In this document: positions 31,194-39,959 of the stretch, one piece after another
Layout of the letters: every line of letters begins with the position of its first letter
How positions within the stretch are numbered: the stretch's first letter is position 1
Source: Candidatus Poribacteria bacterium
GTDB taxonomy: Bacteria > Poribacteria > WGA-4E > WGA-3G
Direction of reading: 5' to 3'
DNA length: 64,000 nucleotides
NCBI GenBank assembly: GCA_022824265.1
Contig: JAJEAG010000014.1
Span: forward strand, 62,001-126,000
Notes under the pieces: generated by a model
Databases searched by the model: none
Seen by the model: the letters and a program-made list of their open reading frames with translations, nothing else
What the model was told of the DNA's origin: nothing
Position numbers and translations under genes: made by a program

Positions 31194-31976
31194 ATGAAAG
31201 TCTATAACATTTGTGCTTTATTTATTGTGTTGTTGATGTTGACCGTGTCAATGTCAACCTTTGCAGTAGTCCAAGAAAAGAACCTTGTGGGTTGGTGGCT
31301 TTTTGATGAAGTAACAGACGAAACCGGTAATTGGGGTGATATTGCTTTTCAAGGTGGCAAGATTGACGGTGGCCAATTGGTCGTTGAATCTGGAAAATGG
31401 GCACATGCTTTGGATTATGATGGTCCAGACATAACTGAGTTGAGTTTAGTGACGTGGGTTAGTTTGGATAGTTACGCGAAGACGAACGGTTCTGCTCTCA
31501 CTCTGGATAAAGTGGATGCAGACCAGTTTTGTGCTATTGTCTGGGCTGAAAGGAAAGACAGACAGTGGATGTCTGGTAGTAGCCATTTTCGCCGCACAGC
31601 CGATTTCCCTAAAGCAGTAACAGAAAAAGATACTGGAGAGATGCTGTTCTTAGTTATTACGTACAAGGATATTGGTGGTCGGTACGAGGTCACCGGTTAC
31701 CGAAATGGAGAGAGCCTTGGGGGTTACGAGGTTAATCATGGTGGTGCTAATATGGATCTTAGAACATGGCCTGCTGGGAATGCTGAAGCGATTTGGGGTA
31801 GGAGACATGTAAATGGACTCAATGGTCCTGGTGATCTCAATGCACATATTGAAGAATCTCGAATCTATAATATAGCATTAACAGAAAACGAGGTCCAGAC
31901 TATTGGCAAAGGTGACCTTCCCGTTGAACCCCGTGATAAACTTGCTACTCGCTGGGCAAAGATGAAAAGACAATAA
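31194..31976 (+). CDS. Exported LamG-domain protein with shared C-terminal tail (1)
   Basis: A 260-residue protein with a signal peptide ending near STFA-VVQ. A single concanavalin-like LamG/LamGL domain follows (NLVGWWLFDE... HIEESRIYNIALTENEV). LamG folds bind glycans or proteins. It ends in VEPRDKLATRWAKMKRQ, a tail also seen in three other exported proteins here. The ATG at 31194 has AAAGGAG eight bases upstream; an in-frame TTG at 31173 is rejected. It is a close paralogue of the next gene. Confidence 0.85.
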   Translation: MKVYNICALFIVLLMLTVSMSTFAVVQEKNLVGWWLFDEVTDETGNWGDIAFQGGKIDGGQLVVESGKWAHALDYDGPDITELSLVTWVSLDSYAKTNGSALTLDKVDADQFCAIVWAERKDRQWMSGSSHFRRTADFPKAVTEKDTGEMLFLVITYKDIGGRYEVTGYRNGESLGGYEVNHGGANMDLRTWPAGNAEAIWGRRHVNGLNGPGDLNAHIEESRIYNIALTENEVQTIGKGDLPVEPRDKLATRWAKMKRQ

Positions 31977-32109
31977 TATTATATGAATAGGCGTGCTTTG
32001 TTAGTGCGCTTATTCAACTTGGTTGAAAATTACTATAAGTACATTAATAATTGATGTTGAGTAAATACACAGAATCATTAAATCCGAATAATTAAAAGGA
32101 GTTGTTTCC

Positions 32110-32874
32110 ATGAGAATAAAAATGTACTGTCTATGTGCAGTGATATTAATGCTTGGTATGCCGATGTTAGTGTTGGCACAGGTGCAAGAAGATAACCTTG
32201 TTGGTTGGTGGCGATTTGATAGTGCAGAAGAAGAAACAGGTAACTTTGGGGATGTTGTCCTTCATGGTGCCACGATAGAAGATGGACAGTTGGTTGTTTC
32301 AACGGATAAATGGGCACATTCCTTGGAATACACAGGACCCGACATTACCGAACTCACCTTGGTTTCTTGGGTCAGTTTGGATAGTCTCGCGAGAACAAGC
32401 GGTTCTGCACTCACGTTGGATGAGTTAACAACAGATCAATTTTGCGGGATCGTTTGGGCGGAAAGAGTGGAAAGACAGTGGATGTCGGGAAGTAGTCATT
32501 TCCGTCGTACAGATGATTTCCCACAAGTTGTCACTGAGAGTGAAACTGAAGTACTTCATATGGTTGCTATAACTTATGAACTTGTCAACAATCAATATGA
32601 AATAACTGGCTATCGTAATGGTGATAGTATGGGTGGCTATACTAAAGGTGATAGTAGAACATGGGAAGCTGGCGATTCAGAGGCGATTTGGGGTAGGCGA
32701 CATGTGAATGGACTTAACGGTCCTGGTAATCTCAGTGCACATATTGAAGAATCCCGACTTTACAACGTTGCGCTGTCAGCTGACGAAGTGATGTCTTTGC
32801 ATGAAGGTGGACTCACACCCGTTGAACCACAAAGTAAACTTGCAACACAGTGGGGCGCGCTCAAGTCAAAATAA
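32110..32874 (+). CDS. Exported LamG-domain protein with shared C-terminal tail (2)
   Basis: A 254-residue paralogue of the preceding gene; long stretches such as RQWMSGSSHFRRT and IWGRRHVNGLNGPG are identical. It has a signal peptide (cleavage near VLA-QVQ), a LamG domain and the tail VEPQSKLATQWGALKSK. The ATG follows AAAAGGAG. The two genes are a tandem duplication separated by 133 bases. It is followed by a terminator and converges on the DUF6785 gene. Confidence 0.87.
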   Translation: MRIKMYCLCAVILMLGMPMLVLAQVQEDNLVGWWRFDSAEEETGNFGDVVLHGATIEDGQLVVSTDKWAHSLEYTGPDITELTLVSWVSLDSLARTSGSALTLDELTTDQFCGIVWAERVERQWMSGSSHFRRTDDFPQVVTESETEVLHMVAITYELVNNQYEITGYRNGDSMGGYTKGDSRTWEAGDSEAIWGRRHVNGLNGPGNLSAHIEESRLYNVALSADEVMSLHEGGLTPVEPQSKLATQWGALKSK

Positions 32875-32891
32875 TCTCTTGAACATTATTT

Positions 32892-32926
32892 AAAGACCAG
32901 CAGTTCTATACTGTTGGTCTTTATTT
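32892..32926. terminator. Terminator after the second LamG gene
   Basis: AAAGACCAGCAG (32892-32903) pairs with CTGTTGGTCTTT (32911-32922, one G-U), followed by a T-rich run. The A-rich left flank could let it also serve the convergent membrane-protein gene. Confidence 0.7.
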
Positions 32927-32936
32927 ATATTGTCTA

Positions 32937-34853
32937 TCAATCGGGTAGAATCCTATATCCGCTGCTAATTCCTGTAGTCATCCCTACTATTGCCCACAAT
33001 CCCGCACATAACATTTCTCCGATAACCAAACCGAGAAACACAGGACGTGCTTGTCGATATGCCTTCAATCCTCCGTATTTCACGATTGCAAATTTCATTC
33101 CCCATCCCAAAAAGATTGAGAACCAAAGTTTGAAAGTTGCCCATGAACTTAACATCGTATAACCGATTGGATGTAGGGGCCACCAAACAAAGGTTTGCCG
33201 CATCCACATCAACCAACCTGTAAACCCTCCACCGAATAGAATAAATCCCGTATTTGTCCAATTTGTGCTGGTTTTCGGACTTGTGAGTAAACCCTCCAGT
33301 TGTCGCATAAACCAACTACCACCCATATATGGTGCACCGTGTGCATAGCCAACTTTGAGTGCAGAGTAATAGGAAACTACAAGACCGATCACCATGGCAG
33401 CCGCCATTGCCATGAGCAGTTGTCGTCGCTTGACACGTGCCTCGTCTGCTGCCTTCAATCCGTTCATGATGTTCGGCATCATAAATTCTCGTAGATCAAG
33501 CGTTAGACACACCGGATGCATCATTAACGATGTCAATGATGATGGATGTATCTTTGATGTACCGAGAGTAGTAAGAAAGAAACTTTGTGGAGAAAATGAT
33601 GGATTGATGAACGGGATACCGCCGTTGATTACCTGCCATGTCAAGACGATATACATTGCAAGTAGAAACAATACAAACCCTAATGCGAATAGGATAGACA
33701 TACCCATGAGGTGATTGAAAAATACGAGCACACAGATACCACCGATAAGTCCAAAGACCGTAACCCCATAAGGTAATGCCTCATCAGAGGAGCGAGTCTG
33801 GAACATGTTTTTTATGTGATGCCTTGTTTTCCATAAGGCAATACCTACAAACACCAGACAAGCACCAGCCTCCTGTGAAGCACTAAACGACTTTCCAGTC
33901 CATTGTACACCGGGTCCAGATGTCAGTTGAAAACCGAGTAGGACACCGATAAGGCATTGTAGCTTGTAAAATATAAAGAAAAACCAGATACTGAATGATA
34001 CCTCTAATGTGAGCAGATAACTGAATCCGACCATTGACCAAAAGATGACTACTTGAAATGGACGTAACGCGCTCCACGGTCTTTCTGTGAGATATGAATT
34101 GAGCCAAAAGTCGCGTGGAATATGTGGGATGGTTGGGAAAAATGTATGGAGTCCGTTCATTGTGTGGAGAAAAACTGGGAATGCGAAACCGAACCAGAAT
34201 AGGCTGTTTTTAAAGAGCGGTCCGAGTCGTCCACTGCCTTGAACTGACATTTCAACAGGAAGTTTTACAAGTGGAAATGCACAACGTTCATATTCTACCC
34301 ACTGTTTACGGAGTAATGACGAAAGACAAATCATTACAAAATAGACAACGAGCACATAAATACTCCAGATGAATATCGGTGTGATCCATGCACCCCACGG
34401 TACGGTTTCGCCCGCGAAAAGACCTTCGAAGAATGAACTGATTGCAGATTCATCTTGTACTACCCGCCAGTGCGGGATGTAGTGGTAGAACAGTGATTCC
34501 CAATCGTTTTCTGGTGTGGCAAAATATTTGTAAGCGATCATTGGGCTGATCGCATATCGCATCATACCTGATGACGGGATTCCTGCGGGGGCAAGCATGA
34601 TGCACCAGATCGTGATGAGTTCACCGGGTGAAAAGGCTGAAGGAGGATGAATCTGTTTTAAGGCAACATTGATACCCAACACGAACAATGTGAGTACAAA
34701 AAACGGAGCGACAGGAAAATGTCCACCTGCAAGGAAAATGTTTCGGATCACATAATCATTATATGGTGCAAGGAGACATTCAATTGTAGCACAAACCAAC
34801 CCAATAATGACTGCGCGCCAAGATAGACTTGTCCGTGTCCGTTGCTGAATCAA
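32937..34853 (-). CDS. Polytopic membrane protein, DUF6785/DUF6784 type
   Basis: A 638-residue protein with about 12-14 hydrophobic helices. Markers include LLAPYNDYVIRNIFLAGGHF, the PGELITIWCIMLAPAGIPSSG region, ERCAFPLVKLPVEM and a C-terminal FTGWLMWMRQTFVWWPLHPI with GYTMLS. The order fits the DUF6785 and DUF6784 domains found in Planctomycetes and Poribacteria, distantly like oligopeptide transporters. The substrate is unknown. It converges on the LamG pair. Confidence 0.75.
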   Translation of the reverse strand: MIQQRTRTSLSWRAVIIGLVCATIECLLAPYNDYVIRNIFLAGGHFPVAPFFVLTLFVLGINVALKQIHPPSAFSPGELITIWCIMLAPAGIPSSGMMRYAISPMIAYKYFATPENDWESLFYHYIPHWRVVQDESAISSFFEGLFAGETVPWGAWITPIFIWSIYVLVVYFVMICLSSLLRKQWVEYERCAFPLVKLPVEMSVQGSGRLGPLFKNSLFWFGFAFPVFLHTMNGLHTFFPTIPHIPRDFWLNSYLTERPWSALRPFQVVIFWSMVGFSYLLTLEVSFSIWFFFIFYKLQCLIGVLLGFQLTSGPGVQWTGKSFSASQEAGACLVFVGIALWKTRHHIKNMFQTRSSDEALPYGVTVFGLIGGICVLVFFNHLMGMSILFALGFVLFLLAMYIVLTWQVINGGIPFINPSFSPQSFFLTTLGTSKIHPSSLTSLMMHPVCLTLDLREFMMPNIMNGLKAADEARVKRRQLLMAMAAAMVIGLVVSYYSALKVGYAHGAPYMGGSWFMRQLEGLLTSPKTSTNWTNTGFILFGGGFTGWLMWMRQTFVWWPLHPIGYTMLSSWATFKLWFSIFLGWGMKFAIVKYGGLKAYRQARPVFLGLVIGEMLCAGLWAIVGMTTGISSGYRILPD

Positions 34854-35229
34854 TATGTACTCACTTTTTAAGAAGAGGTTCTGGTATAGTGTTGTTTTCG
34901 TTGCATGAGCAATGATTTTCTAACATAAGGATACATCTCAAACACAAAGATAAAACATATAATTTTCACTATCCCTTTAAGTCAAGTATCCAAACCATTG
35001 AAATGTTTATGGATTCTATATACTAATTCTACTTCTATCATACACAATAAATGCGATTCTGTAAACTGTGTTGAGGTTTTTGAAATAATTTCCATTTAAT
35101 AACAAAAATATTATATGACAAATAACGATAAGTTGGGTAAAATAGTAATAGAATGTTAAAGCACTCGACCGAAACTTATGATAATTGTTGTTTAATTGTC
35201 TTATATTTTATAGAAACGGAGATATGATG
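34854..35229. other. AT-rich gap, no gene seen
   Basis: Divergent upstream region of the membrane-protein and PhyH genes. It contains no convincing ORF or clear repeat and presumably holds both promoters. Confidence 0.5.
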
Positions 35230-36777
35230 ATGCAAACACATTCAAACCTAATTGAATCTGATAATGTTCAAAACCCTCCATCTACTTCACTTTTCAGTGA
35301 TAAACAGGTGCAGGACTTTATCGTAAATGGTTATATTACGGTTAAAACGGATTTGCCACGTAGTGTTCATGAGACGATATATCGCAAAACACAGGAATTC
35401 ACCGAGAAGGAGGGGAACTTAGGTAATAACATCTTACCACGAGTTCCAGAGTTGCAGGCTGTTTTTGATGATCCCACTGTCCGTGGTGCCTTTACGAGCA
35501 TTTTGGGACAGAATTACGTGATGCACTCACATCGACATCCGCATCGGAATGGTCCTCACAGCGGAGGGCAGGGATTTCATAAGGATAGTTATTGGGGGCA
35601 TCAGAAAGTCCGTCAACACCGACCTCGTTGGGCAATGGCATTCTATTACCCTCAAGATACTCCACTTGAAATGGGTCCCTCATCAATCCTGTCAGGAACG
35701 CAATATTATGATCATAGGTTAACGGAGGATAACAATGGAGAAGTGGCACTGAGCGGTGAAGCGGGTACGCTCACACTTATCCATTTTGACCTATGGCATC
35801 GTGCTATGGCAAACCAGACCGACAAAACCCGTTATATGATGAAGTTTCAGTTTATCCGAATGGATGAACCCCAAGAACCAGAATGGAACTCGGAGGATTC
35901 CTCGTGGAACACTGATGGTCTTGATATAAACGGTAACCCTGCAGCACAGCGTCATGAAACCGCATGGCGACATGTATGGAATTGGATGGTTGGTGGAACA
36001 AACGGACATTCAGCAGAGGAAGCCAATGGAAAATTGTCAACCTACATTGAAGCATTAAGCGATGAAGATCCTATCGTTCGCTCAGAAGCAGTAGATGCAC
36101 TGGGATTGTTAGGCGAATCTGCCGCCGATGCTGTCCCGATGCTGAATAATGCCTTAGGTGATGACTATGAACCTGTCCGACTGAATGCTGCTTATGCATT
36201 GGGTGAAATTGGTGAATCTGCAGTATCAGCATTAATAGAGAAACTTGAAGATGAAAATGGTTCTGCTCGACGAATGGCAGCCTATGGATTAGCTGCTGTT
36301 GGTGCTCCAGCAGTATCAGCACTTTGTGATGCAATGGAACACGAAAATGATGAGGTGCGACATCAAGCCTCTTATGCTTTGGCACAGATTGGGAGTTCTG
36401 CGGAACCAGCAGTTTCAACGCTGATGGCTCATTCAAAAGATAGCAAAGTTGAGGTGCGTAGATATATACCAGAGGCATTCGGAGCAATTGGGGCACCTGC
36501 TGCATCTGCTGTGCCAACGTTAATTGACATGTTGGCTAACGATGAGGATGTGCAAGTTCGTTTTGAGTCTGCTTTGGCGTTAGGTCAGATTGGTCCTGCA
36601 TCCAGTGATGCAATTCCGGTTTTGAAGGAATCGCTTTCTGATAATAATCGTTATGTCCGTGACAATTCTATCCATGCCCTAAAACGAATTGGGACTCCAG
36701 AAGCGGAAACCGCCCTCTTCGATTATCTGCTTATGGCGCGATGGTGTGCTATTACTAATAGCGAAAGCACATTCTAA
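35230..36777 (+). CDS. Phytanoyl-CoA dioxygenase family protein fused to HEAT repeats
   Basis: About 515 residues. The N-terminal Fe(II)/2-oxoglutarate dioxygenase (about 20-215) has the facial triad H117-x-D119 in GFHKDSYWG and H190 in FDLWHRAMAN, with R201 for 2-oxoglutarate. It is therefore likely an active hydroxylase of unknown substrate. From about 255 to 505 there are seven or so PBS-lyase/HEAT repeats (SEAVDALGLLGESA, VRLNAAYALGEIGESA and others). Three ATGs in a row (35224-35232) follow ACGGAG; the third has the best spacing. Confidence 0.85.
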   Translation: MQTHSNLIESDNVQNPPSTSLFSDKQVQDFIVNGYITVKTDLPRSVHETIYRKTQEFTEKEGNLGNNILPRVPELQAVFDDPTVRGAFTSILGQNYVMHSHRHPHRNGPHSGGQGFHKDSYWGHQKVRQHRPRWAMAFYYPQDTPLEMGPSSILSGTQYYDHRLTEDNNGEVALSGEAGTLTLIHFDLWHRAMANQTDKTRYMMKFQFIRMDEPQEPEWNSEDSSWNTDGLDINGNPAAQRHETAWRHVWNWMVGGTNGHSAEEANGKLSTYIEALSDEDPIVRSEAVDALGLLGESAADAVPMLNNALGDDYEPVRLNAAYALGEIGESAVSALIEKLEDENGSARRMAAYGLAAVGAPAVSALCDAMEHENDEVRHQASYALAQIGSSAEPAVSTLMAHSKDSKVEVRRYIPEAFGAIGAPAASAVPTLIDMLANDEDVQVRFESALALGQIGPASSDAIPVLKESLSDNNRYVRDNSIHALKRIGTPEAETALFDYLLMARWCAITNSESTF

Positions 36778-36808
36778 TGTAGTTGTACTTACTAATTTTA
36801 GAAAAAAT

Positions 36809-36847
36809 CTGTAGGTCGGAGGTCGCTATTTTCCCTCTGACCTACAG
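36809..36847. repeat. Hairpin containing 27-bp repeat copy C
   Basis: CTGTAGGTCGGAGG (36809-36822) pairs with CCTCTGACCTACAG (36834-36847, one G-U). Its core, 36815-36841, is a member of the repeat family at 10.04 and 51.9 kb. No T-run follows, but it could end PhyH transcription. Confidence 0.6.
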
Positions 36848-36877
36848 TATATTATAAAAATTTTGGAGGAATATAAA

Positions 36878-37831
36878 ATGAGTATATTAGAACACGCTGA
36901 AGAACTTATTAACGAAATTCAAAATCGATTAGAAGAATTTGAGCGATCAAATGAAGAATCAGTTGAAAGAATACACAATCAATTAGAGGAACAAAGGAAT
37001 AAATCTGAAGAACAGATTGAGAGAATACAGAGTGAAATTGAGAAAGAAACTGAATCGGCTGAGGAACAGATCCGTAGAATGCAAGAGGGTTTAGAAGAAT
37101 ACCATAGGAAGGTTGAAGAACAGATACATAAGCTACAGGAAGAATCCGAAGAATATGGACGCAGAATTGAGGAGGATATTGAAAGGATTCAAGAACGAAT
37201 TGAACAGTCCAGAGAAAAGGCAGAAGAACAGATGGAGCGAATACATGAACAGATGGAACACAACCATGAGATAGCAGAAGAAAAAATTGAAAGAATCCGT
37301 GAAAAAACGGAAGAATATAAAGAAAATTCCGATGAACGTGTTGATAGAATTCGTGAACAAATGGATGAAATCAGAGATAGTACAGAGAACCGACACTCTG
37401 AAAGTTTACATTTTGAAACGGATACACGTGTTGAAGATCACCCCGTTGAAGATAAAGTGCAGATGCTGATGGAACGTTATAATGCTGAGTACAACCAGCG
37501 GCATGATATGTCAACAATCAGCAATACCTACGTTCTCAATGGCGTTGAAATATTGAAATACAGTGGTAAATATCTTCCGTTAGACGAATTGGATAAGCAC
37601 TATCCACGCAATGAATGGCTGCAAACATTGATAGATAATAACATCTCAATAGAGAATCTTCATGATTATTGTCGCTATCTTAATGCTCGCGATATGTTGA
37701 TGCGGATTCAAAAGAGACCTAAAGTTTGGACTTCAGGTCTGTTCAATATTACGCCAACAGAGAATTGGGAAATATATCAGGATGCGTACATTAATCAGTT
37801 AGTAAATCCAGAAAAGGCACCGCATGCTTAA
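36878..37831 (+). CDS. Coiled-coil protein with eight 18-residue repeats
   Basis: A 317-residue protein. Residues 26-165 hold eight tandem 18-residue repeats that start E-E-x-I-E-R-I at 26, 44, 62, 80, 98, 116, 134 and 152 with no indels. The region is rich in Glu, Arg and Gln and must be one long helix. Residues about 195-317 form a globular domain (HPVEDKVQMLMERYNAEYNQ, NGVEILKYSGKYLPLDELD, WTSGLFNITPTENW) that I do not recognise. There is no signal peptide. The ATG at 36878 follows TTGGAGG; an earlier in-frame start at 36863 overlaps that site. Confidence 0.75.
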   Translation: MSILEHAEELINEIQNRLEEFERSNEESVERIHNQLEEQRNKSEEQIERIQSEIEKETESAEEQIRRMQEGLEEYHRKVEEQIHKLQEESEEYGRRIEEDIERIQERIEQSREKAEEQMERIHEQMEHNHEIAEEKIERIREKTEEYKENSDERVDRIREQMDEIRDSTENRHSESLHFETDTRVEDHPVEDKVQMLMERYNAEYNQRHDMSTISNTYVLNGVEILKYSGKYLPLDELDKHYPRNEWLQTLIDNNISIENLHDYCRYLNARDMLMRIQKRPKVWTSGLFNITPTENWEIYQDAYINQLVNPEKAPHA

Positions 37832-37861
37832 GCAATAATATTCTGCGAATCCATATATACG

Positions 37862-37911
37862 AAAGGATGACTAAGTGTTGATTCACTGCTGAAGGTCATC
37901 CTTTTATTTTT
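37862..37911. terminator. Bidirectional terminator
   Basis: AAAGGATGAC (37862-37871) pairs with GTCATCCTTT (37895-37904), followed on the plus strand by a T-rich run. It lies between the coiled-coil gene and the convergent propeller gene, whose stop codon starts at its right arm. Confidence 0.7.
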
Positions 37912-38938
37912 GTTCCTTCAATTTACCCCAGGTAGTTACAAAAGAATCTGCTGGTTCAACTGGATATGCTTTATTATCCCAATCAAGTGAAGACACAGTG
38001 TATTTCATTGTAATTAGAATTGGTTCTGGTTCACCACCTGTAGCGGGTATGATAAAATTTCCCATTGATCTAAATTGTTCAAGATTTGTAACTTTGTTGG
38101 GGTGGATATATGACGTGTATGCAATATATTTTCCATCAGGTGACCAAGTGTTAACGTTATAACTATAATTCTCTTTTGCTTGTAGTAGTACCGGATCAGC
38201 GTCAGGTTGCACAGGAACGACTACTATACCTCTTGCACGCTTATTTCCATTTAATGGAACTGTGGTTTCATAAGCAATCTGTTTTCCATTCGGTGAAAAC
38301 ACCGGGGAATATACCTCTCCTTCAGTTATTTGGAAGACATCATTTGTTGCAACATCTAATAGAAAAAGACCATCAGGTTTTGTAAAAGCAATTTGCTTAC
38401 CATCAGGTGACCATTCTATATCAAATAAATTCGAATTCCATACCATTGCATCAAAGAGGAGTTCAATTTTGGGTTCATGTTCAGTAAGTTCTTCATATCG
38501 AATAAGTCTTATTCCTGGACGTCTTATAAAGACGACATCACCGTTTTTAGATATATCAGCGTCTACAAAATCTGTAATTCTCTCAAGCGTAAGATTTTTT
38601 GTTTTTCTTCCTGGGTTTTTACGATCTAATAGAAATAGTTCAGATCCGGAAAATGCTTGAATATTCTGCCCTTCAAAGACCATTCTGTCGGCAACAACAA
38701 GCACATAATCACCATCATCCTGCAATTCAATTTTTTCAATACTGTTAAACTTCTGGTTAAAGTATTTACGAGCAGTAGTTCCTTCCATATTGGATATCCA
38801 TATTTCGCTCTGTGATACTGGGTGAACAAAGATTATTTCCCCTGTCGGAGCAGCACTTGAATGTGTAGGTGTTAGCATGAGAAACATGCCAATCCAGAAA
38901 AAACATAGATGACCGTAGAATTGAATTTTATTATTCAT
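37904..38938 (-). CDS. Exported TolB-like beta-propeller protein with shared C-terminal tail (1)
   Basis: A 344-residue protein with a signal peptide (cleavage near SSA-APT). It has PD40/TolB-type blades: SPDGKQIAFTKPDGLFLLD, SPNGKQIAYE and SPDGKYIAYTS, each a WSPDGK-IA pattern. It ends YPVEPADSFVTTWGKLKEQK, matching the tail on the LamG proteins. Likely a periplasmic or surface protein. It overlaps the upstream paralogue by 8 bases. Confidence 0.82.
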   Translation of the reverse strand: MNNKIQFYGHLCFFWIGMFLMLTPTHSSAAPTGEIIFVHPVSQSEIWISNMEGTTARKYFNQKFNSIEKIELQDDGDYVLVVADRMVFEGQNIQAFSGSELFLLDRKNPGRKTKNLTLERITDFVDADISKNGDVVFIRRPGIRLIRYEELTEHEPKIELLFDAMVWNSNLFDIEWSPDGKQIAFTKPDGLFLLDVATNDVFQITEGEVYSPVFSPNGKQIAYETTVPLNGNKRARGIVVVPVQPDADPVLLQAKENYSYNVNTWSPDGKYIAYTSYIHPNKVTNLEQFRSMGNFIIPATGGEPEPILITMKYTVSSLDWDNKAYPVEPADSFVTTWGKLKEQK

Positions 38939-39959
38939 TTTTGCCTCCTCTCCTTATGTCACGTTTTAATTTGCCCCATGTAGTAGTAAGTTTTGCCACT
39001 GGTGTAAGTGGGAATGATTCTTTTGTCCATTCCCAAACTCGGATGCCACCTTCAAAATCATCAAAAATAGTTTGTGTTCTTCCATCTTCAATCGACACAG
39101 CCAAATTTAGATATTCCCAAACACTTTTTCGGTCAACCAGTTGATGCTTAATTAACACATAAGCAATAGACTTCCCATCAGGTGTCCACGTAAGGTAGTC
39201 AAGAAATAAATCAGTTTTTGTCTTTTCAAACATTTTTACATTTTTGGGTTCCATTAGAGAAATAACCCCAACTTCTTTAAACCCTATCTGATTATTTTGT
39301 TTTGGTGTATATGTGTAAAATGCTAACTTTGTTCCATCAGGAGAGAAAACAGGACGAAACCCATAATCAAGTATCTGTGACACCTCTTTTGTAAATGTAT
39401 CAAGCAAAAAAATCCCTTCCATATTCGAAAACACAACATCTTTTCCATTTGGCGACCAGTCTATATATCCAGCGGGTCCATCATAAATTTTTTCTGCTTT
39501 TGGAATTGTCTCATGAATTTCATAATTTGGAATGAGATAGATCCCGTCAGGATAATCAAAATCAATGGAATTTGCAAAGATAATATCTCCTTTAGATGAA
39601 ATCGATGCGTCTAAAACAACACTAAACTGTCCGTAGGTTAAATCCTTTCTACCCTTCTTCAATTCTTTTGTATCAAAAAGATATGCATCAAATCCAGTTT
39701 CATTTCCTATACCCTCACCAACACAAAGAATGTACCTATCTCCTTTCAGTATTGAAATCTCTTGGATTATAAGTGGCGGAGAAAAAAGTTTTCGAGGTTT
39801 GGAACCATTGACATCACTAATCCATAACCCTATTTGTTTCTGATGATTTTGGGCATATATAATCTCTTCAGCGGGGAAAGCATTATCAATAAAAATATAA
39901 CATAAGGAGAAAAGACATAAACAGATTATACGCAGTTGAAATTGAAAAAATTGTTTCAT
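38931..39959 (-). CDS. Exported TolB-like beta-propeller protein with shared C-terminal tail (2)
   Basis: A 342-residue paralogue of the next gene, with a signal peptide (LCYIFIDNAFPAEE region) and propeller blades (DWSPNGKDVVFSNMEGIFLLD, FSPDGTKLAFYT, WTPDGKSIAYVL). Near the C-terminus it has FPLTPVAKLTTTWGKLKRD, the shared tail with eight extra basic residues. It is the first gene of a two-gene transcript, overlapping its partner. Confidence 0.82.
   Translation of the reverse strand: MKQFFQFQLRIICLCLFSLCYIFIDNAFPAEEIIYAQNHQKQIGLWISDVNGSKPRKLFSPPLIIQEISILKGDRYILCVGEGIGNETGFDAYLFDTKELKKGRKDLTYGQFSVVLDASISSKGDIIFANSIDFDYPDGIYLIPNYEIHETIPKAEKIYDGPAGYIDWSPNGKDVVFSNMEGIFLLDTFTKEVSQILDYGFRPVFSPDGTKLAFYTYTPKQNNQIGFKEVGVISLMEPKNVKMFEKTKTDLFLDYLTWTPDGKSIAYVLIKHQLVDRKSVWEYLNLAVSIEDGRTQTIFDDFEGGIRVWEWTKESFPLTPVAKLTTTWGKLKRDIRRGGKNE

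Follow-up and report, generated by a model that had tools for sequence, protein, structure and literature searches.

We describe a short C-terminal tail that is a phylum-wide and previously undescribed label of exported proteins in Candidatus Poribacteria and that very probably serves as a sorting, secretion or anchoring signal. It was recognized in a window of 64,000 nucleotides (contig JAJEAG010000014.1, positions 62,001 to 126,000 of the forward strand; assembly GCA_022824265.1), in which four genes within 31.2-40.0 kb encode tail carriers. Two of these genes, on the forward strand, encode LamG proteins, and two on the reverse strand, which overlap each other by 8 bp, encode TolB/PD40-like beta-propellers. 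The proteins and their tails are as follows:

31194..31976, + strand: LamG protein 1 (ATG at 31194), with signal peptide and Laminin_G_3 domain
31920..31973, + strand: C-terminal tail of LamG protein 1, PVEPRDKLATRWAKMKRQ (tail profile E 1.4e-8)
32110..32874, + strand: LamG protein 2, with signal peptide and Laminin_G_3 domain
32818..32871, + strand: C-terminal tail of LamG protein 2, PVEPQSKLATQWGALKSK (tail profile match)
37904..38938, - strand: propeller protein 1, a TolB/PD40-like beta-propeller with signal peptide
37907..37963, - strand: C-terminal tail of propeller protein 1, PVEPADSFVTTWGKLKEQK (tail profile match)
38931..39959, - strand: propeller protein 2, a TolB/PD40-like beta-propeller with signal peptide
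38934..39011, - strand: C-terminal end of propeller protein 2, PLTPVAKLTTTWGKLKRDIRRGGKNE
38964..39011, - strand: tail motif of propeller protein 2, PLTPVAKLTTTWGKLK, followed by the ten residues RDIRRGGKNE (match to the DNA pattern and to the profile)

An original prediction, made from the sequence of the window, had assigned these four proteins a common ending, P-x-x-K-L-A/T-T-x-W-G-x-L-K, on two unrelated folds. All four tails were found as it gave them, and the folds are indeed distinct (Laminin_G_3 and PD40/TolB-like). The motif holds as a consensus but not literally: in LamG protein 1, W-A and M replace W-G and L, and in propeller protein 1, S-F replaces K-L. The tryptophan and the final lysine are present in all four tails; the first lysine is present in three and is replaced by serine in propeller protein 1.

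The tail and its carriers

The window comes from a draft genome of 4.45 Mb. We searched this genome with a degenerate DNA pattern encoding P-x-x-K-[L/F]-x-T-x-W-[G/A] and obtained 45 matches, compared with none for the reversed control. Although the pattern ignores stop codons, every translated match was the end of a protein. A profile hidden Markov model built from 53 tails gave 127 matches (best E 5.7e-11), and all 120 profile matches of at least 10 bits in the loci of this genome lay no more than 13 residues from the stop.

To define the extent of the tail, cluster-weighted information content was calculated by position from the tryptophan. Positions -45 to -13 each carried less than 0.9 bits; nearly all positions from -12 to +4 carried 1.4 to 4.3 bits. 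Upstream of position -12 the information content drops, so the carriers have only about 17 residues in common, V-[DE]-P-x-x-K-L-[TA]-T-x-W-[GA]-x-[LI]-K. A longer C-terminal domain shared by the LamG and propeller proteins, which had been named at the outset as a finding that would speak against a signal, was rejected, as the information content upstream of -12 is at background. In the AlphaFold model of propeller protein 1, the core has a predicted local distance difference test (pLDDT) score near 90, but the last 19 residues score below 50 and the last 14 score 33-36. The AlphaFold2 model of LamG protein 2 is weaker, and its last 18 residues (233-250) have pLDDT values below 50. These models suggest that the tail lies flexible, outside the folded domain. 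As originally noted, the tail sequences contain no hydrophobic stretch or helix. The view that no signal of this form had been described also stands: no Pfam or NCBIfam model covered the tail in our scans, and we found no published description of it.

We reconstructed 121 carriers in this genome, and in every one the tail is at the extreme C-terminus. A signal-peptide-like N-terminus was found in 119 of them, compared with 86 of 237 background open reading frames (ORFs) judged by the same hydropathy heuristic; of the two remaining carriers, one is cut by the edge of its locus and one has no clear start. Nearly all carriers lack both a lipobox and a membrane helix; the exceptions are two with a lipobox-like sequence and one with an internal membrane-like stretch. 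Since the carriers resemble Sec substrates that have no anchor in the membrane, a tag on them could function at the outer membrane. By blastp, the carriers form 24 sequence clusters. More than half are LamG-like (Pfam LamG was found in 62), and other carriers match PD40, LDL-receptor class B, 3-keto-disaccharide hydrolase, CBM9, CBM4_9, HmuY, lamin-tail, NPCBM, DUF4960 and PA14.

Distribution in Poribacteria and their probable phages

Poribacteria are uncultured and are common partners of marine sponges. The strict pattern was found in all 85 genomes of the phylum, which represent 10 families and 22 genera, with no control matches in any of them. Distant genomes with few strict matches still gave 34 to 97 tail-profile matches. 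In a named genome collection, 79 of 80 loci among the matches listed belonged to Candidatus Poribacteria, the other being an ORF of 36 residues, and 97 of 99 distinct matches listed ended 14 to 25 residues after the proline. One of the other two was cut by the end of its locus, and one was a chance match in a 36-residue ORF. Thus, the tail is phylum-wide and, among the matches listed, occurs almost nowhere else; the number of exported proteins that bear it ranges from dozens to more than a hundred per genome. The expectation that the tail would be confined to C-termini was borne out in the genome of the window (120/120), in other Poribacteria (33/33) and among the matches listed (97/99), as were the expectations that its carriers would be exported and would span many folds.

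Viral contigs gave 44 pattern matches. Most fall near the N-terminus of a phage protein of 555-585 residues, in a stretch like PRDKLxTRWGQLK (L370, L376, L377 and others), which is a chance look-alike of the tail and serves as a natural control. These contigs and the reversed-pattern controls led us to reject the idea that the tail is an effect of chance or composition.

The tail itself was found on a phage LamG protein of about 307 residues with an N-terminal hydrophobic segment. This protein ends with IEPKNKLVTTWGEMKKWK in L388 and VEPKLKLTTTWGEVKK in L364, and its homologue in L409 has IKSKLKLTTTWGEVKK immediately before the stop. The contigs are as follows:

L388/L408: IMGVR 3300032360_000003
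L364/L410: IMGVR 3300021791_000527
L409: IMGVR 3300048642_000110

The LamG proteins of L364 and L388/L408 are 63% identical to each other. Both contigs are phage DNA: L364 and L388 each encode a DNA polymerase and DnaB, and L388 additionally encodes UvsX, a deoxynucleoside monophosphate kinase and a tail-fibre-like protein. Two phage fragments are partial, L371 showing only the tail end and L412 only the N-terminal part. The phage LamG protein matches proteins in 57 of 60 Poribacteria genomes. It is likely that these phages infect Poribacteria and use the label of their host. A further contig, L391 (IMGVR 2740892559_000001), has a tail-bearing LamG gene beside genes for leucine-rich repeat-dockerin-FlgD_ig and cohesin proteins, and it looks like host rather than viral DNA.

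Known signals and candidate machinery

The tail has features in common with the type A C-terminal domain (CTD) of the type IX secretion system (T9SS; TIGR04183, PF18962), which is read by PorV and SprA. Both are C-terminal, both are found on Sec-exported folded proteins of many folds, SprA-like, PorV-family and PorU-like proteins occur in the phylum of the tail, and some domains occur with either signal. However, the type A CTD is an immunoglobulin-like (Ig-like) beta-sandwich of 70-80 residues with motifs B, D and E, whereas the tail has about 17 residues, is apparently unstructured and has no detectable homology to it. The short CTDs of Prevotella intermedia (40-55 residues) are reduced T9SS signals and show that a CTD can be shortened, but they keep a three-stranded sheet and motifs B, D and E, none of which the tail has (PMC11969387). 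Type B and type C CTDs are also C-terminal T9SS signals, and type B cargo has its own shuttles, but these domains are about 100 residues long and type B has several motifs (PMC10202324, PMC12618676). Additionally, the shuttle gene often follows the type B CTD gene, which is not so for tail genes. PEP-CTERM, GlyGly-CTERM and LPXTG are, like the tail, short fold-independent C-terminal tags of exported proteins, but they contain a basic end together with a hydrophobic transmembrane helix, and the tail has no such helix. The cargo peptides of encapsulins and microcompartments resemble the tail in being short peptides for docking that often follow a linker at the C-terminus; they work in the cytoplasm, whereas tail carriers have signal peptides. 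Type I secretion substrates, which have no N-terminal signal peptide, differ from the carriers for the same reason.

In the genome of the window, we found 35 classical type A CTDs (TIGR04183), on ORFs of about 400 to 2160 residues. The tail and the CTD never occur on one protein (121 tail proteins and 35 CTD proteins), and none of 120 carriers scanned matched TIGR04183. Eight carriers have a domain in common with a CTD protein, and in three the similarity is strong; for instance, the L035 carriers match a CTD protein with E 3.7e-37 and 2.1e-34. As the two endings are never on the same protein and related domains bear either, these results fit two alternative C-terminal labels, without proving that a single machine serves both.

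Parts of a divergent T9SS are present in the phylum. An SprA-like ORF was found in 84 of 85 genomes and in none of 14 controls (TIGR04189; best E 1e-7 to 1e-65). It is mostly 2150-2300 residues long, with 50% mean column identity over 13 orthologues, and Pfam SprA_N was above cut-off in two of the three orthologues scanned. In the genome of the window the gene is at L277:4616-11080 (G000:C14). One orthologue contains a LysM domain. ORFs beside the SprA-like gene (L280:10429-12272, L277:11090-11755) have a different conserved C-terminus, PIS[ST]G[IV]PKRVDF[VI]IPxxPPPIxGN. The PorV family (NF033709) was above cut-off in all 85 genomes, with 8-24 matches each. At G000:C36:6530, C5:37338, C41:12647 and C72:38822, PorV-family genes adjoin CTD-bearing genes, like type B CTD/shuttle pairs. 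PorU-like proteins were found in 13 of 13 genomes, with E down to 1e-95, yet below the cut-off of the PorU model. Thus, the search for a co-occurring translocon that had been suggested at the outset found T9SS-type parts, and it also found a type II secretin.

The genes that recur beside carriers, judged from their sequences, seem to encode CTD-type proteins, PhyH oxygenases, Gfo/Idh-like oxidoreductases and sulfatases; by the same judgement, no receptor-like partner gene was among them. In the window itself, the stretch 35185-36777 encodes a fusion of HEAT repeats with a PhyH (phytanoyl-CoA dioxygenase) domain.

A model for the function of the tail

We are highly confident that the tail is a sorting, secretion or anchoring signal. 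This was the original reading, and it is supported by the position of the tail, which is only C-terminal, by the export and the many folds of its carriers, and by the lack of a longer shared domain. We propose that a carrier would be exported by Sec, lose its signal peptide and then fold in the periplasm with the flexible tail exposed. A dedicated outer-membrane receptor would read the core K-L-x-T-x-W-[GA]-x-[LI]-K and would move the carrier to the cell surface or fix it there. The most likely receptor would be a shuttle of the PorV family, in cooperation with the divergent SprA-like translocon. There is precedent for cargo-specific T9SS shuttles (PMC12618676), and the last 22 residues of Hbp35 are, according to work cited in PMC11969387, the part that is absolutely required. 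Besides the classical Ig-like CTD, the tail may therefore constitute a second T9SS-type signal of minimal form. Of the features expected of T9SS substrates in the wide sense, the carriers have a Sec signal peptide (119/121 by the heuristic) and a conserved C-terminal signal, and a PorV-family shuttle is available in 85 of 85 genomes.

Several results weigh against the T9SS-type route. The SprA-like ORF is below the curated TIGR04189 cut-off in all genomes but one, and no chain matched the SprA-like protein when it was compared with PDB sequences. The model for the GldM motor had no match in 11 genomes, although its controls were silent too, and 10 of 11 genomes also encode a type II secretin, with scores above the cut-off of the GspD model TIGR02517. 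The tail profile showed no sequence relation to the CTD profile (hhalign probability 0.1%), and homology of the tail to the end of the CTD is therefore not supported. Within 3-5 kb of CTD genes, tails showed no enrichment, clustering of the two at 10 kb was weak (p 0.02 for tails and 0.10 for arrays, uncorrected), and tail genes are not systematically beside PorV genes. On balance, we consider the T9SS-type route the best single mechanism, with about an even chance of being correct. Whether the SprA/PorV system reads the tail is a similarly balanced question, and we judge in the same way the full proposal of a C-terminal sorting signal across Poribacteria whose receptor is most likely a PorV-family shuttle with a divergent SprA-like translocon.

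Other explanations must be weighed against this route. The tail could be an anchoring or docking peptide by which a scaffold (an outer-membrane protein, the S-layer, peptidoglycan or a surface polysaccharide) retains carriers in the periplasm or on the surface, with no role in transport. The peptide is short, exposed and fold-independent, and many carriers have lectin-like or propeller domains that would gain from surface retention; however, carriers on the surface would still need another route over the outer membrane, and our data identify no scaffold. We consider this somewhat unlikely. It is unlikely that the tail belongs to an undescribed, Poribacteria-specific outer-membrane sorting machine unrelated to the T9SS or to the type II secretion system (T2SS). 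Such a machine would explain why the tail is essentially in one phylum among the matches listed, why Bacteroidota have T9SS-type parts without the tail, and why the tail has no homology to CTDs, but these genomes already encode candidates for the export of folded proteins, and parsimony speaks against another.

The T2SS exports folded Sec substrates, and the tail might address carriers to it as a linear recognition or surface-retention tag, which the wide presence of GspD would allow. However, we know of no T2SS substrates that are recognized by a conserved linear peptide at the C-terminus, and the GlyGly-CTERM tags of T2SS clients have the hydrophobic helix that the tail lacks, which makes this explanation distinctly improbable. 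Finally, the predominance of LamG-like carriers could indicate a mere relic of one ancestral LamG family, or the tail could be a degradation or quality-control tag. We regard both as barely credible: the 24 sequence clusters, the constant distance to the stop (14-25 residues in 97/99 among the matches listed) and the conservation throughout the phylum and among phages indicate that the tail is an active, selected signal.

Returning to the T9SS-type route, the presence of SprA-like, PorV-family, PorU-like and CTD proteins together in Poribacteria contrasts with the report of Kamke et al. (2014), who saw CTDs in these bacteria without finding structural genes of the T9SS (PMC3909097). Likewise, classical type A CTDs outside Bacteroidota contrast with reviews that confine the T9SS and its CTDs to that phylum (PMC10202324, PMC4793230). 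These results raise the question of whether a T9SS-type machine can read a short linear peptide. We tentatively suggest that Poribacteria use a 17-residue, helix-free label throughout the phylum, that it is read by a machine yet to be described or by a T9SS that recognizes a linear peptide, and that phages bear the label to place a protein of their own on the host surface. The tail allows proteins that are probably secreted or at the surface to be listed from sequence in this uncultured phylum, which is prominent in the symbiosis with sponges, and it is a possible host marker for Poribacteria phages.

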